Assembly: GCF_006088715.1 (NCBI RefSeq)
Contig: NZ_CP030771.1
Coordinates: 3,348,001 to 3,412,000, forward strand
Length of the DNA: 64,000 nucleotides
Direction: 5' to 3'
DNA from: Streptomyces sp. YIM 121038
Lineage (GTDB): Bacteria; Actinomycetota; Actinomycetes; Streptomycetales; Streptomycetaceae
How positions within the stretch are numbered: the stretch's first letter is position 1; each line of letters starts with the position of its first letter. The notes beneath the pieces are model-generated. The model was not told the origin of the DNA. It worked only from the letters and a program-made list of their open reading frames with translations, and searched no databases. The position numbers and the translations under genes were made by a program. This document shows, piece by piece, positions 8,372 to 27,382 of the stretch.

Positions 8372-9019
8372 ATGGCAGACCGCTCGCGCGCGGGCCGCGG
8401 CAGGGCCGGGACCGCGCTCATAGGGACCGTCACCGCGCTCGCCCTGTGCTCCGGCGCGTGGCTGCTGCACAGCGGCACGGCCGGGCATCCGCCGCCGCAG
8501 CCCTCGGCCGCGCAGGCCGCGTCGCCGGGGGCGCGTTCCGTGTCCGCCGCCGCGCCGCTGCCGCCCTCGCCGCCCGACCGCGTCCGCGTCCCCGCCATCG
8601 GCGTGGACGCGCCGCTGATGGGGCTCGGCCTGACCCGCCAGGGCAGCCTCGACGTGCCGCCGCCGCGGCACACGAACCTCGCCGGGTGGTACGAGGCGGG
8701 CACCACGCCCGGCGAACGCGGCACGGCGGTCGTCGCCGGGCACGTCGACAACGCCGACGGGCCCGCGGTCTTCTACCGCCTCGGCGCCCTCAGGAAGGGG
8801 CAGGTGATCGAGGTGGAGCGGCGCGACGGCACGGTCGCGCTCTTCGCGGTGGACGCGGTGGAGGTGTACGACGCGAAGTCCTTCCCGGACGAGAAGGTGT
8901 ACGGGGCCGCGGCGCGGGCCGAGCTGCGGGTGATCACCTGCGGCGGGGCGTACTCCAAGCGCACGGGCTACCAGGGCAACGTGGTCGTCTTCGCCCACCT
9001 GACGGGCTCCCGCCAGTAG
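8372..9019 (+). CDS. class F-like sortase
   Basis: A 215-residue membrane-anchored cysteine transpeptidase. An N-terminal helix (ALIGTVTALALCSGAWLL) anchors it outside the membrane, followed by a Pro/Ala linker. The sortase beta-barrel carries all three catalytic residues: His in VVAGHVDN, Cys in LRVITCGG and Arg in SKRTGYQGNVVVFAH. The TCGG instead of TLTC and the short size are typical of the actinobacterial class F group rather than SrtE. It should attach proteins to peptidoglycan, the upstream secreted protein being the obvious candidate. ATG 8372 has a good ribosome site (GAGGGGAC). Confidence 0.85.
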   Translation: MADRSRAGRGRAGTALIGTVTALALCSGAWLLHSGTAGHPPPQPSAAQAASPGARSVSAAAPLPPSPPDRVRVPAIGVDAPLMGLGLTRQGSLDVPPPRHTNLAGWYEAGTTPGERGTAVVAGHVDNADGPAVFYRLGALRKGQVIEVERRDGTVALFAVDAVEVYDAKSFPDEKVYGAAARAELRVITCGGAYSKRTGYQGNVVVFAHLTGSRQ

Positions 9020-9433: not shown

Positions 9434-10651
9434 ATGACCAGTGACTGCGCGCGGACCGTCGTGGTGGGGGCCGGGCTCGCCGGAGCCCGGCTCGCCGCGC
9501 GGCTCGGCCCGGACGCCCTGCTGATCGGGGAGGAACCGTACGCCCCGTACAACCGCGTCCTGCTCACGGACGTGCTCGCGGGACGGCTCGCCCCCGAGGT
9601 GATCGCGCTGCCCGCCCCGGCCCGGCACCTGCGCACCCGGGCGGTGCGGATCGACCGCGCGGAGCGGGTGGTCCGGTGCGCGGACGGCTCCCGGGTGCCG
9701 TACGGCACCCTCGTGCTCGCCACCGGCGCGAACCCGGTCCTGCCCCCGCTGCGCGGCCTCTTCCCGCCGGGCGCCACGGACCTGCCCGGCGGCGTGCACG
9801 CGTTCCGCACCCTCGACGACTGCCTGGCGCTCTCCGCCGCCGTGACGCCCGGCTGCCGCGCCGTGGTCATCGGCGGCGGCCTCCTCGGCGTCTGCGCGGC
9901 CCGCGCGCTCGCCGACCGGGGCGCCCGGGTCGTCCTGGCCCAGCAGGGCGGCCGGCTGATGGAGCGCCAGCTCGACCCGGCCGCCTCGGGCCTGGTGCGC
10001 GAGCACCTGACGCGGCTCGGCGTGGAGGTGCACACGGAGTGCCGGGTGCGGGGCGTGCGCCGCGACGGGGACGCCGTGACGTCCGTCGAGCTCGCGGACG
10101 GGTTCGTGCTCGACACCGAGCTGACCGTCCTCGCCTGCGGCGTCCGCCCCCGCGTCGGGCTGGCCCGCGCCGCGGGCCTCGCCGTGCGCCGGGGCGTCGT
10201 CGTCGACGACGCGCTGCGCACCGACGACCCCCGCGTCCGCGCCGTCGGCGACTGCGCCGAGCACGACGGCCGCGTCCCCTGCCTGGCCGCGCCCGCGCTC
10301 GACCAGGCCGACGCGCTGGCCGCGGCCCTGACCGCGCCGGAGTCGGCGCGGCCCTACGCGGGCACCCGCTCGCTGACCCGCCTCACGCTCCCGCACGCCG
10401 AACGCCCACTGGACGTGGCCGCGTTCGGGGAGCCCGAGGCCCGCCCCGACGACGACGTCCTGCGTCTCGCGGACGCCACCCGCGGCACGTACCGCAAGGT
10501 CGTGGTGCGCGGCGACCGGCTCGTCGGCGGCGTCCTGCTCGGCGATCTCGCGGCGGTCGGCGCGCTCGCCCGCGCCTGGGAGGCGGACGAACCCCTGCCG
10601 GACGACGGCGTCCCGCCGCTGCATCTGCTCACCCACGACGGAGGTCACTGA
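9434..10651 (+). CDS. NAD(P)/FAD-dependent oxidoreductase of the nitrite reductase operon
   Basis: A 405-residue pyridine nucleotide-disulfide oxidoreductase-type protein. The FAD site is VVVGAGLAGARLAARL, the second Rossmann motif VVIGGGLLGVCAARAL binds NAD(P)H, and AVGDCAEHDG is the second FAD motif. EEPYAPYNRVLLTDVLAG is the sequence typical of NirB-like and assimilatory nitrite or nitrate electron donors. It has no iron-sulfur or siroheme part. It repeats the N-terminal half of the NirB encoded two bases downstream, so it probably feeds electrons to nitrite or nitrate reductase. GlnR control is expected from the upstream box. Confidence 0.8.
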   Translation: MTSDCARTVVVGAGLAGARLAARLGPDALLIGEEPYAPYNRVLLTDVLAGRLAPEVIALPAPARHLRTRAVRIDRAERVVRCADGSRVPYGTLVLATGANPVLPPLRGLFPPGATDLPGGVHAFRTLDDCLALSAAVTPGCRAVVIGGGLLGVCAARALADRGARVVLAQQGGRLMERQLDPAASGLVREHLTRLGVEVHTECRVRGVRRDGDAVTSVELADGFVLDTELTVLACGVRPRVGLARAAGLAVRRGVVVDDALRTDDPRVRAVGDCAEHDGRVPCLAAPALDQADALAAALTAPESARPYAGTRSLTRLTLPHAERPLDVAAFGEPEARPDDDVLRLADATRGTYRKVVVRGDRLVGGVLLGDLAAVGALARAWEADEPLPDDGVPPLHLLTHDGGH

Positions 10652-23148: not shown

Positions 23149-25920
23149 GTGGAGTTCCGGCTGCTCGGAGCGGTGTCCGTCGGCACCGAGGCCGGTGAGC
23201 TGCACCTCGGTCCCGCCAAGCGGCGCAGCCTCCTCGCCGCCCTGCTGCTGCGGCCCAACCGCCCCGTTCCGGTCGAGCAGCTGACCGCCACCCTGTGGGA
23301 GGACGAGCCGCCGCCGCGCGCCCGCAGCGTCATCCAGGGCCATGTGTCGCGGCTGCGGAGCCTGCTGGCCGACGCGGGCGCCGAGGTGTTCGGGGTCGAG
23401 CTGGTCACGCGGGGCACGGCGTACCTCCTGCGGATGCCCGAGTCGCTGCTCGACGCCCACCGCTTCGAGGAGCTGGTGACGCTGGCCCGCGAGCAGCGCG
23501 CGCCCGGCGACGCCGTGGCCATGTACGAGGAGGCCCTGTCCCTGTGGCAGGGGCCCGCGCTGACCGGGGCCTATCCGAGCCCGCCGCTACTCGCCGCCGC
23601 GCACGCCCTGGAGGAGCTGCGGCTCGCCTCGGTGGAACTGCTCGCCGCGGCCTACGCGCGCCAGGGCGAGCACCACCGGGCGGCGGCCGTCCTTCGCGCG
23701 GAGGCCGAGGCCCATCCGCTGCGCGAGTCCCTCGCGGCCTCGCTGATGCGGGCGCTCCAGCGCGCGGGGCGCCGCTCGGAGGCGCTCGACTGGTTCCACC
23801 GCACCCGGCGGCTGCTCGCGGACGAGCTGGGCGTGGACCCGGGCCGAGAGCTCGCGGACGCGTACGCGGCGGCGCTGCGCGGCGCGGACGACGAAGCGGA
23901 CGCCCCGGCACCGGCCCCTCCGGCGGCGTCCGCCCCGCCCGCCGCCCCGCCCGCGCCCGCCGCCCCGCTTCCCGCCCCGCTCGCGCCCCCGCCGCCCCGG
24001 CCCGCCGTCACCGTCGACCTGCTGCCCCGGATGCCCCGCGGCTTCCACGGGCGCGCCGCCGAGCTCACCGCGCTGTCCCGCGCCGCCGCGGGCGAGGCGC
24101 CCGTGTGTCTGGTGACCGGGCCCGCGGGCGTGGGCAAGACGGCGCTCGCCGTGCACTGGGCGCACCGCGAGCGCGCCGCCTTCCCCGGCGGCCTGCTCTA
24201 CGCCGATCTGCGCGGCTTCAGCGACACGGGCGAGCCGGACCACCTCGAAGTGCTGCGCGAGTTCCTGCTCGCGCTCGGGGTCGGGCCGCGCCGGATACCG
24301 GAGTCGGCGGGCGGCGCCTCCGCCCTGTACCGCTCGCTCGCCGCCGACCGGCAGCTCCTCGTCGTCCTCGACAACGCGCGCGACTCCGCGCAGGTCAGGG
24401 AGTTGCTGCCGGGCGGCGCCCGGTGCGTCACGGTGGTCACGAGCCGGTACCGCCTGCGCGGCCTGATCGCCTCGGACGCGGCCCGGCCCGTGCCGGTGGA
24501 CGTCCTCGAACCGGACGACGGCACGGCCCTGCTCTGCGCGGTCCTCGGCGAGGATCGGGTGCGCGCGGAGGCGGTGGCCGCCCGGCGCCTGGCCGAGCTG
24601 TGCGGCGGGCTCCCGCTCGCGCTGCGGGTGGCCGCGGCGCGGCTCGCGGACCAGCCGGACTGGTCCCTCGGCGCGATGAGCGCCGAACTGTCCGACGAGT
24701 CGCGCCGACTGGGCCTGCTCGACGTGGAGGACACGGGCGTACGGGCGGCGCTGCGGCTCACCGTGCGCCGCCTGCCCGCGGACGTCGCGCACCACTTCGC
24801 CCATCTGGGCCGCCACCCGGGCACGCACGTCGACCGGTTCACGGCCGCCGCCCTCGCGGGCACCGACCCGGAGGCGGCCGAGGCCGCCCTGGAGCGGCTC
24901 GCCGCGGCCCACCTCGTCACCCGCTCCGCGCCGGGGCGCTGGTCGCTGCACGACCTCGTGCGCCTCTACGCGCGTGACCTGGACGCCGGGCCCGAGGCGG
25001 TGCCCCGGGTGCTCGACCACCAGATCGCCACCGCCCTCGCCGCGATCGCCGCGGCCGAGCCGGGCGAGGAGGCCTGCTTCGGCCTGCCCGAGGACTTCCA
25101 CCGGCCCGCCGCCGTACGGGAGTTCGGCGGCCGCGAGGAGGCCATGGCCTGGTACGCGGCCGAGCGCGACGATCTGACCCTGGCGGTCGGCGCGGCCCGT
25201 GCCGCCGCCCTGCACGGCAGGACCTGGCGGCTCGTGCTCGCGCTGTGGCCGCACATCGTGTGGCGGCACCGGGACGGCTGGGCCCCGCTCCTTCAGACCG
25301 CGCTCGACGCCGCCCGGGCCGACGCGGACGTGCGGGCCGAGGCGCGGGTGCGGGCCCTGCTCGGCTGGGTCCTCGCCGAGGAGGGCCGCACCGGCGAGGC
25401 CCTGGCCCATCTGGAGGCCGCGACCGGGCTCGCCGCGCGCGCCGGTGACGTGCCCGGGGAGGCGACGGCGCTGATCAACCTGTCGCTCGTCCAGGCCGCC
25501 CTCGGCGACCCCGAGGAGGCCGCGGAGGGCTGTCTGCGGGCCGCCTCCCTCGCGCGCGAGGCGGGCGACCGGCACACCGAGCGGCTCGCCCTGCACCATC
25601 TGGCCCGGCACCGCCTCGTCCTCCAGGAGTGGCGGGCGGCCCTCGACACGGCCACCGCCGCGCTCGCCGTCGACATTCCCCCGCAGACGTCGGCGGCGTC
25701 GCGGGTGCTGCTCCTCACCACGGCCGGAGAGGCCCTGATCGGCCTCGGCGACGAGGGCGGGGGCGTGTCCCGCCTGGAGCAGGCGGCCCACGAAGCGGAA
25801 GCGTCCGGTTTCGACGAAGGGGCTGTCGGGGCGCTCGGCGCGCTGCTGCGCGTCTCGGCGGACGTGGGCCTGCGGGCCCGCTACGACACAGCGGTGATGC
25901 GGTTCAGGGCACAGCCCTGA
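23149..25920 (+). CDS. AfsR-like SARP transcriptional regulator with NB-ARC ATPase
   Basis: A 923-residue regulator built like AfsR. The N-terminus is an OmpR-type winged helix (EFRLLGAVSVG to about residue 90, with RSVIQGHVSRLRSLL), then a bacterial activator domain (BTAD, about 95-240; HPLRESLAASLMRALQRAGR). A Pro/Ala linker leads to an NB-ARC ATPase whose Walker A is VTGPAGVGKTALAVHW and Walker B LLVVLDNARD. The C-terminal third is TPR-like helices (EARVRALLGWVLAEEGRTGE). ATP binding should trigger DNA binding. GTG 23149 has GGAAGG seven bases upstream, so an in-frame extension to 22891 is rejected. It is followed by a lipoprotein gene with SARP-type repeats in its promoter. Confidence 0.9.
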   Translation: MEFRLLGAVSVGTEAGELHLGPAKRRSLLAALLLRPNRPVPVEQLTATLWEDEPPPRARSVIQGHVSRLRSLLADAGAEVFGVELVTRGTAYLLRMPESLLDAHRFEELVTLAREQRAPGDAVAMYEEALSLWQGPALTGAYPSPPLLAAAHALEELRLASVELLAAAYARQGEHHRAAAVLRAEAEAHPLRESLAASLMRALQRAGRRSEALDWFHRTRRLLADELGVDPGRELADAYAAALRGADDEADAPAPAPPAASAPPAAPPAPAAPLPAPLAPPPPRPAVTVDLLPRMPRGFHGRAAELTALSRAAAGEAPVCLVTGPAGVGKTALAVHWAHRERAAFPGGLLYADLRGFSDTGEPDHLEVLREFLLALGVGPRRIPESAGGASALYRSLAADRQLLVVLDNARDSAQVRELLPGGARCVTVVTSRYRLRGLIASDAARPVPVDVLEPDDGTALLCAVLGEDRVRAEAVAARRLAELCGGLPLALRVAAARLADQPDWSLGAMSAELSDESRRLGLLDVEDTGVRAALRLTVRRLPADVAHHFAHLGRHPGTHVDRFTAAALAGTDPEAAEAALERLAAAHLVTRSAPGRWSLHDLVRLYARDLDAGPEAVPRVLDHQIATALAAIAAAEPGEEACFGLPEDFHRPAAVREFGGREEAMAWYAAERDDLTLAVGAARAAALHGRTWRLVLALWPHIVWRHRDGWAPLLQTALDAARADADVRAEARVRALLGWVLAEEGRTGEALAHLEAATGLAARAGDVPGEATALINLSLVQAALGDPEEAAEGCLRAASLAREAGDRHTERLALHHLARHRLVLQEWRAALDTATAALAVDIPPQTSAASRVLLLTTAGEALIGLGDEGGGVSRLEQAAHEAEASGFDEGAVGALGALLRVSADVGLRARYDTAVMRFRAQP

Positions 25921-25946: not shown

Positions 25947-25990
25947 ACGTCAGCGGGACATCAGCCGGGCGTAAGCGGAACGCCAGCGGG
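25947..25990 (+). promoter_or_regulatory. SARP-type binding site: four tandem 11-bp repeats
   Basis: Four contiguous 11-mers with consensus ACGTCAGCGGG start at 25947, 25958, 25969 and 25980 and match it at 11, 9, 8 and 10 positions. The core (T/C)CAGC recurs every 11 bp on one face of the helix, the pattern SARPs recognise next to the -10 region. A possible -10, TAGTGC, lies at 26002-26007, 11 bases after the last repeat. The site is between the SARP stop and the DUF4232 lipoprotein gene. Confidence 0.75.
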
Positions 25991-26070
25991 GGCGACGAAA
26001 GTAGTGCTCACAGCGGGGGCGACCCCGCGAGGACCGCACCGACCAGCACCACCGCACAGGGGGACCTTCC

Positions 26071-26820
26071 ATGCGTACGTCGCGTATCCACACCACCGCT
26101 CTCGCCGCCGCGGCCACCGCCGCCCTGGCTCTGTCCCTGACCGCCTGCGGCAGCTCGGACGACAACGGCGCGGGGAAGCCCCGGGTGAGCACGGTCGGCA
26201 AGACCACGGAGTCGTCCGGCAAGTCCGCGGGCACGGACGCGGCGGGCACGGCGGACACGGCGGCGGGCACGGCGGCGAAGACCGGCGGCCAGGCCGCGGC
26301 GGGCGGCGGGCAGGCCGGGCCGTCCCGCTCCGCGTCGGCCTCGGTCGCGAAGGGCTCCGGCGCCGCCGTCGACGCCGCGCGCTCCGCCTCCGTGCGCCAG
26401 TGCGACGGTACCGAGATGTCGTACTCCGTCCTCCACCGCTTCGCGAAGCAGCGCGGCGAGCACCTGCTGATCACCGCGGTGAACGCCGACACCAAGCCGT
26501 GCTGGGTCACCTCGTACCCGTCGGTGATGCTCGGCAACACCGTGAACGTCCTCGGCCACTCCGCCAAGGACGCCCCCGGCGGCGCCGCCCGCATCACCGT
26601 CAAGCCCGGCGGCAAGGTCTACTCCGCCGTGAGCCTCTTCGCCGACGGCCCGCGGTCGCACACCTCGTCGAGCCTGTCCCTGGCGCTGCGCGACCGCACC
26701 GGCGACACCGGCCCCGGTACCGACCAGGAGGCCTTCGACGCCAAGGGCGCGCCGTCGAAGTTCACCTGGTCCAGCGCGGACGTCACCAACTGGAACACCG
26801 CCAAGCCGTACGGCTTCTGA
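26071..26820 (+). CDS. DUF4232 domain lipoprotein
   Basis: A 249-residue exported lipoprotein. The signal peptide (ALAAAATAALALSLTAC) has lipobox LTAC. About 100 residues of Gly/Ala/Thr/Ser-rich linker follow, then a C-terminal DUF4232 domain starting near SVRQCDGTEMSYSVL with the second Cys in TKPCWVTSYPSVML; the two Cys probably pair. DUF4232 proteins are common surface proteins of Streptomyces with no known activity. The four 11-bp repeats in front make it the likely direct target of the upstream SARP. It ends at a perfect hairpin. ATG 26071 has AGGGGGA upstream. Confidence 0.82.
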   Translation: MRTSRIHTTALAAAATAALALSLTACGSSDDNGAGKPRVSTVGKTTESSGKSAGTDAAGTADTAAGTAAKTGGQAAAGGGQAGPSRSASASVAKGSGAAVDAARSASVRQCDGTEMSYSVLHRFAKQRGEHLLITAVNADTKPCWVTSYPSVMLGNTVNVLGHSAKDAPGGAARITVKPGGKVYSAVSLFADGPRSHTSSSLSLALRDRTGDTGPGTDQEAFDAKGAPSKFTWSSADVTNWNTAKPYGF

Positions 26821-26916: not shown

Positions 26917-27138
26917 CTAGACGGTGTGCCTGACCTGGTGGCTGTAGACGCCGACGAAGTAGTGCCCGAACTGCGGCGTGGAGAAGACGTAGTACGGCTC
27001 GTTCATGCCGGGGAAGAGCGGCCAGCGCAGGTCCACCTCGTTGACCGGACCGGTGTAGTGGGCCTTCTCCCGGAGGATCTTGTCCGCCTCGGTGAGTTCG
27101 AGGTTGACGGGCCAGGGGATGATCCGGTCCCCCGCCAT
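26917..27138 (-). CDS. small hypothetical protein, 73 residues
   Basis: I do not recognise this protein. It reads MAGDRIIPWPVNLELTEADK and goes on to a Tyr/Phe/Pro-rich second half with FPGMNEPYYVFSTPQFGHYF and a His-containing end YSHQVRHTV. No signal peptide, membrane helix or metal site is evident. ATG 27138 is chosen because GAGGAG lies eight bases before it; ATG 27153 is an in-frame alternative. It stands alone, pointing towards the DUF4232 gene, with a hairpin just after its stop. Coding is supported by the ribosome site and the non-repetitive sequence. Confidence 0.6.
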   Translation of the reverse strand: MAGDRIIPWPVNLELTEADKILREKAHYTGPVNEVDLRWPLFPGMNEPYYVFSTPQFGHYFVGVYSHQVRHTV

Positions 27139-27382
27139 GTACTCGCTCCTCATGAGGGTCGGGTGGTGGAGCCTGGGCGCACGGAGAGGCCACCGGGCAC
27201 CGAGTGCGGATCCGACAGTGCCGGGGCAGCGGTGAATTGCGCCTCTTGTGCGCTGGATGGGCAACTGAAGCGCCTTGCCCGTAAAGGGAATTGTTACGCC
27301 CGGCTCTCGTGCCGCACCAGGAGCGGATTCGGTCAGCGGACACGTGACGCGATCAATCCTGCGCAGAGGTTGACGCTACGCA
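27139..27382. other. intergenic region upstream of the 73-residue gene
   Basis: No coding potential I believe. It is AT-richer than its surroundings around 27280-27300 (GTAAAGGGAATTGTTACG) and 27345-27365, as expected of a promoter zone, but I cannot assign clean -35/-10 pairs. Confidence 0.4.

Follow-up and report, generated by a model that had tools for sequence, protein, structure and literature searches.

A conserved SARP-type operator and promoter predicted ahead of DUF4232 lipoprotein genes in Streptomyces

Judged by its sequence and its conservation, an array of four 11-bp repeats in the window (the whole 64-kb stretch of DNA analysed here) is a real, conserved SARP-type operator, and with the -10 hexamer behind it forms the predicted promoter of a DUF4232 lipoprotein gene (Table 1). 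We regard it as probable, at roughly 85%, that positions 25947-26002 act as an activator-dependent promoter of this gene, read by the SARP encoded directly upstream or by its orthologue. The most likely arrangement across species is a conserved SARP switch that acts on DUF4232 genes both in cis and in trans. Since the same repeats are found before related lipoprotein genes in many Streptomyces species, the switch is testable. We know of no function for DUF4232 proteins, and no regulator tied to the family was found in the open-access papers searched; linking a SARP group to this family of surface proteins would give them both a regulator and a testable context.

RESULTS

The repeat array and its promoter elements

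The array spans 25947-25990 and consists of four contiguous 11-mers, identical to the first at 11, 9, 8, and 10 of 11 positions. These in-phase repeats had been described in an earlier note on this DNA, and on rereading the sequence we confirm their letters, match counts, and positions, as well as their placement between the SARP gene (26 nt past its stop codon at 25918-25920) and the lipoprotein gene (ATG at 26071). With a self-similarity of 27/33, the array ranks first among all positions on both strands of the window when scored as four in-phase 11-mers, and no dinucleotide-shuffled version of the intergenic stretch, out of 5000, equals this value (shuffle maximum, 23). The pattern AGCSG, repeated four times at 11-bp steps, has a single exact match in the 11.1-Mb genome, namely the array itself. 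With up to two mismatches allowed, 22 matches are found in the genome versus 21 for the reversed control, and relaxed patterns in the window's own genome stay close to control level.

The position of the -10 hexamer is an addition to the earlier note, which gave none. A plain sigma-70 promoter scan called no promoter in the region of 25997-26002, an expected outcome because a -35 element is absent. The hairpin just past the SARP stop codon was not called by the terminator scan, and by eye it is not seen in locus L001. In the region of the predicted transcript start, window positions 26011-26023 carry CAGCGGGGGCGAC, a repeat of 25984-25996; by eye, many loci of the L021-L043 kind show TGTCAGCAG in the equivalent region.

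Table 1. Features of the predicted operator region, its flanking genes, and a second site in the same genome
Feature	Position	Strand	Basis or remark
Gene for a large SARP regulator (923 aa; starts with GTG)	23149..25920	+	Trans_reg_C, BTAD, NB-ARC, and TPR-like end
G+C-rich hairpin, 10-nt arms, 4-nt loop	25923..25946	+	Just past the SARP stop codon; possible terminator
SARP operator repeat 1, ACGTCAGCGGG (predicted)	25947..25957	+	-62 to -52 if the afsS geometry holds
SARP operator repeat 2, ACATCAGCCGG (predicted)	25958..25968	+	Sequence
SARP operator repeat 3, GCGTAAGCGGA (predicted)	25969..25979	+	Putative counterpart of the upstream afs box repeat, -40 to -30
SARP operator repeat 4, ACGCCAGCGGG (predicted)	25980..25990	+	Putative counterpart of the downstream afs box repeat, -29 to -19
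Predicted -10 hexamer, GAAAGT	25997..26002	+	6 nt (GGCGAC) past repeat 4; placed by cross-species comparison
Predicted transcription start	26009..26010	+	By analogy with the position of the afsS box
GGGGGA, ribosome-binding-site-like	26059..26064	+	Sequence; about 60 nt past the -10 hexamer
Gene for the 249-aa DUF4232 (PF14016) lipoprotein; lipobox LTAC, last residue 26	26071..26820	+	Pfam; lipobox by eye
Second SARP-type site, GCGTCAGCGGA ACATCAGCCGG ACGTGAGCGGC GGGCGC CAACCT (-10, CAACCT)	L236:5435-5478 = G000:C1:1031434-1031477		Three-repeat pattern; window's genome

The regulator belongs to a SARP group distinct from AfsR

The window's SARP has the layout of a large SARP (SARP-NOD-TPR), a class of about 1000 aa with OmpR-type DNA-binding, BTAD, NB-ARC, and TPR domains, although its match to TPR_12, at 25 bits, lies below the cut-off of 30.1. 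Full-length AfsR from the PDB aligns to it over residues 2-841. The earlier description of the protein as AfsR-like is therefore apt for its domain layout and does not extend to AfsR identity: as a candidate AfsR orthologue it is rejected by NCBIfam NF053617 (401 bits against a cut-off of 1430), and the true AfsR of this genome is encoded elsewhere (C1:4375320; 1664 bits). A tree built from 98 N-terminal domains places the window's SARP within an 83-row group with support of 100/98, separate from AfsR and from six other sampled SARPs of the same genome. The recognition helix reads QGHVS in all 34 group members printed, out of the 83 in the tree, and RTYAS in AfsR, where the alignment places it at R87-S91 in the numbering used in excerpts of PMC10936776. 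The regulator is thus a member of a separate, well-supported SARP-NOD-TPR group, distinct from AfsR.

The lipoprotein and the DUF4232 family

The protein encoded downstream matches DUF4232 (PF14016) with 32 bits, above the gathering cut-off of 27, and its signal peptide with lipobox LTAC (Cys26) marks it, by pattern alone, as a bacterial lipoprotein. The lipobox cysteine is absent from the proteins of L008, L034, L036, L052, L202, and L203, so lipidation is not a family-wide trait; these proteins retain a signal-peptide-like start and are perhaps secreted rather than lipid anchored. Structure prediction suggests a beta-sandwich for the DUF4232 domain, and no telling relative was found. Past the lipoprotein gene, the minus strand of the window contains a 115-aa open frame (26917-27264) that matches nothing in Pfam or NCBIfam at E <= 0.001. 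Scans of the SARP's neighbours identified a TAP-like hydrolase and the DUF4232 gene and left one frame unmatched.

Conservation of the operator beside the SARP gene

We found 69 loci with a SARP of the window's type; 14 without the SARP 3' end were dropped, and the remaining 55 together with the window make up 56 loci. Scores of the four-unit block are bimodal, with 35-44 in 31 loci and 26-30 in the other 25. The control, 934 stretches of 700 nt, has a 99th percentile of 31 and a maximum of 35, a value at which three of the high-scoring loci (L018, L019, and L048) lie exactly. A -10 of the form NANNNT follows the block at a gap of exactly 6 in 30/31 high-scoring loci and in 0/25 low-scoring ones, a count free of selection for the -10. 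At other gaps in the high-scoring loci we observe none at 2-5, 7, 8, or 10-13 and two at gap 9; the exception to the gap of 6, L018, is one unit out of register. Direct repeats with 11-bp spacing, here four in phase, and a constant short gap between the 3' repeat and the -10 (30/31 sites) are the marks of a SARP operator.

The block also goes with the lipoprotein gene. Where a DUF4232 gene lies just downstream on the same strand, the block is present in 25 of 26 loci, and where none does, in 6 of 30 (one strand, 1800 nt; Fisher p 3e-9 with relatedness ignored, the locus counts not being independent because the loci are related by descent). The DUF4232 profile used for this count leans towards sites because it was built from proteins behind them. 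All 45 proteins scanned with Pfam downstream of sites match DUF4232 (E <= 0.001). In total, 51 frames had been called behind sites (none in L011), and six were dropped ahead of the Pfam scan: those of L012, L018, L019, and L037 (other genes), L039 (no plausible frame), and L132 (wrong strand). The lone exception among the 26 loci, L010, has a short remnant.

Six loci carry the block without a DUF4232 gene just downstream on the same strand (L011, L012, L018, L019, L037, and L039). In L011 and L012 the gene is lost or reduced to its first codons, and in L037 the block stands ahead of a second SARP gene. In L018 and L019 it precedes another secreted protein, which has HC and GDSGG motifs by eye and no Pfam match. 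These two loci (L018:5032-6369 and L019:9234-10568) have the appearance of a target exchange behind a kept promoter, with the secreted protein replacing the DUF4232 gene.

Extending the search to both strands of the whole loci yields a DUF4232 gene in 30/56 loci and a site in 28 of those 30. The loci that gain a gene are L010, L017, L038 (where it is convergent), L045 (where it lies upstream of the SARP), and L052 (where it lies 2 kb downstream). A site precedes the added gene in L010, L017, and L052; in L038 and L045 no site scores 34 or more on either strand of the whole locus. In L010 (minus strand, near 9905) and L017 (minus strand, near 8866), the DUF4232 gene is inverted relative to the SARP with the site kept ahead of it.

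The operator profile comprises 47 sites (42 after thinning at 80% identity), from which L018 (off register), L132 (wrong strand), and L200, L201, and L205 (divergent) were omitted. Information per column averages 1.09 bits within the block, against 0.11 for the upstream flank and 0.21 for the gap, with sites chosen by score. The 100% A and T in the -10 of the profile are partly selected, because added sites required the -10.

The operator follows the DUF4232 gene when the SARP lies elsewhere

We sampled 199 genomes of the genus, spaced evenly through a larger set; 17 of them encode a DUF4232 homologue scoring at least 79 bits. The SARP group (61-100% identity over the N terminus) is present in 13 of those 17 and absent from G016, G193, G148, and G192. 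Calling a site at a score of 32 or more with a -10 at gap 6, we find the operator in 12/13 genomes with the SARP group versus 0/4 without it. The miss is G103, where the SARP adjoins the DUF4232 gene and the best block scores 32 without a -10 at gap 6. The earlier note's reading of the repeats as a SARP-type operator thus stands, with conservation and a fixed -10 where both genes adjoin (25/26 loci); its proposed check, that species keeping both genes should also keep the repeats, is largely borne out, with L038, L045, and G103 as exceptions.

The SARP and DUF4232 genes lie far apart or on other contigs in G137, G055, G165, G150, G064, G194, and G086, and where they are apart, the predicted operator goes with the DUF4232 gene. 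G137 has three DUF4232 copies, and the one that is a pseudogene is without a site. Upstream of the DUF4232 gene in the SARP-less genomes (L134, L137, L138, and L142), we observe by eye a common, different element, TGTTACSGAATGCGGACA. These genes carry TGTTACSGAATGCGGACA instead and therefore have a different promoter, possibly one for another sigma factor or regulator.

In G031 and G154, the SARP group and DUF4232 are each represented by two genes, and G137 is similar. The second DUF4232 gene of G031 and G154 bears the operator variant that genomes of the basal SARP clade also show, and this suggests a pairing of SARP paralogue with operator variant in these three genomes. In-trans sites of the basal clade have scores of 32-36, a range that overlaps the control (maximum 35); their support also comes from the -10 and from an unvarying location, -117 to -120 relative to the start. 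The recognition helix gives no explanation for the difference in the basal-clade operator.

Further sites and the breadth of the switch

Searching 22 genomes picked for having the SARP with a three-repeat pattern, we obtain 45 matches versus 4 for the reversed control; the 45 count overlapping registers separately, and three of them, in G206, belong to a different GGGAGCCGTAC array. The 30 loci fetched represent 21 distinct ones, of which 15 have a rightly placed -10, and 10 of those 15 precede DUF4232 genes. A sixteenth -10, in L253, is printed at an unrelated place. In 11 of the 22 genomes, the SARP is not directly followed by a DUF4232 gene on its own strand. Four of these 11 have an in-trans DUF4232 gene with a site (L237, L238, L242, and L247), two (L248 and L252) have a site without such a gene, L012 retains the site before a cut-down gene, and the remaining four gave no credible site in the three-repeat search.

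The same pattern reveals a second SARP-type site in the window's genome (Table 1). It precedes a LuxR-type regulator gene whose neighbours are a type II thioesterase and a type I PKS. A near relative keeps the site (L250): the NRRL B-1347 genome matches in layout and encodes an 83% identical LuxR protein. Among the genome's matches to the window's SARP, none lies between 874 and 1378 kb. In the window's species, the SARP may act on this polyketide-cluster regulator gene as well. The earlier proposal of a switch dedicated to the lipoprotein is not supported: the DUF4232 target is often in trans, targets are swapped (L018/L019 and L037), and the second site precedes a gene of a PKS cluster, so the switch is probably not dedicated.

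DISCUSSION

Proposed mechanism and competing explanations

We propose that SARP-NOD-TPR protomers, encoded upstream or by an orthologue elsewhere in the genome, would line up on the four 11-bp repeats, one beside the other. By analogy with AfsR at afsS, the two repeats nearest the -10 would replace the -35 element and recruit sigma-HrdB RNA polymerase, with protomers contacting sigma region 4 and the polymerase and so offsetting the poor -35. A second protomer pair would sit on the two outer repeats, and four units could seat two dimers. Binding of the SARP at the array would lead to activation rather than repression, with gating by the NOD and TPR domains a possibility. The SARP, which has an NB-ARC domain, may be gated by ATP, as the earlier note put forward, or by phosphorylation. 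As a four-unit operator with a fixed -10, the array offers material for studying the action of large SARPs.

An unlikely alternative accepts the site as a SARP site and holds that the SARP chiefly controls a biosynthetic cluster, with the lipoprotein as a minor or accessory target. The three-repeat site with CAACCT before the LuxR-type gene by the type II thioesterase and type I PKS, kept in a near relative, speaks for such a role; this second site is found in only two close genomes, however, whereas the association with DUF4232 spans the SARP group and accounts for two-thirds (10/15) of the distinct sites with a -10.

Somewhat less probable again is that the operator is read by another regulator of 11-bp repeats, be it AfsR, another SARP of the genome, or PhoP, whose PHO box consists of 11-nt repeats around GTTCACC. 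The field of candidates is wide, as the genome has 40 matches to the window's SARP at E <= 1e-3 (AfsR, the SARP itself, and split genes counted), and at afsS the repeat sites of AfsR and PhoP overlap, as described in excerpts of PMC10972967. For AfsR, its own afsS box in this genome, CGTTCATCGAA CGTTTATGACG, is near the AfsR consensus and unlike the window's block apart from TCA, and the recognition helix differs. AfsR homologues are moreover present in all Streptomyces tested by that review, yet the block is missing in the 4 SARP-less genomes. The SARP-linked distribution of the block speaks indirectly against PhoP. A chance or mutational tandem array without function can practically be set aside: short repeats are common in G+C-rich DNA and the controls are above zero, but the array ranks first in the window, is unmatched in the 5000 shuffles, and stays in phase with a fixed -10 across diverged species.

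With the predicted DUF4232 promoter, read by the upstream SARP or its orthologue, as the preferred reading, a broader one can be offered tentatively, at odds below even. The genus might have a non-AfsR SARP group whose conserved core target is DUF4232 surface proteins and not an antibiotic cluster, with paralogous SARP-operator pairs (G031, G154, and G137). In the window's species, the group would in addition turn on a polyketide cluster via the LuxR-type gene. If so, envelope state and antibiotic production would come under one ATPase-type switch. The second site is also a lead for waking the polyketide cluster.

Comparison with known systems

In excerpts of PMC10972967, SARPs appear mainly as activators of antibiotic clusters, alongside the global regulator AfsR, and the SARP sites listed there have two or three repeats. 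The closest parallel is AfsR-afsS of Streptomyces coelicolor, in which a SARP-NOD-TPR gene is likewise followed directly by its target gene, and 11-bp direct repeats end at -19; the relevant part of PMC10936776 gives the afs box as -40 to -19 with a -10 of CACTGT, and as a rule for SARPs a 3' repeat about 8 bp from the -10. The window genome's own afsS box is followed after 6 nt by CACTCT (the 6-nt gap being a search condition), a gap like that of the window's block and hence the same arrangement. The systems differ in that afsS has two units and the window four, in the SARP group, and in the target, AfsS versus a DUF4232 lipoprotein. The operator letters also differ, about ACGTSAGCGGR in the window versus CGTTYATCGNN for AfsR; the array was rejected as an AfsR afs box, sharing only TCA with the consensus CGTT(T/C)ATCGNN quoted from PMC10972967.

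PimR-pimM, with a SARP-LAL operator of three heptamers, and other cluster SARP sites are comparable in having direct repeats at 11-bp steps before the target, according to excerpts of PMC5930380 and PMC10972967. From the same excerpts, PimR-pimM resembles the second site in that three repeats stand ahead of a LuxR-type gene, and PimR differs from the window's regulator as a SARP-LAL encoded inside its gene cluster, with a main operator that does not overlap the -35.
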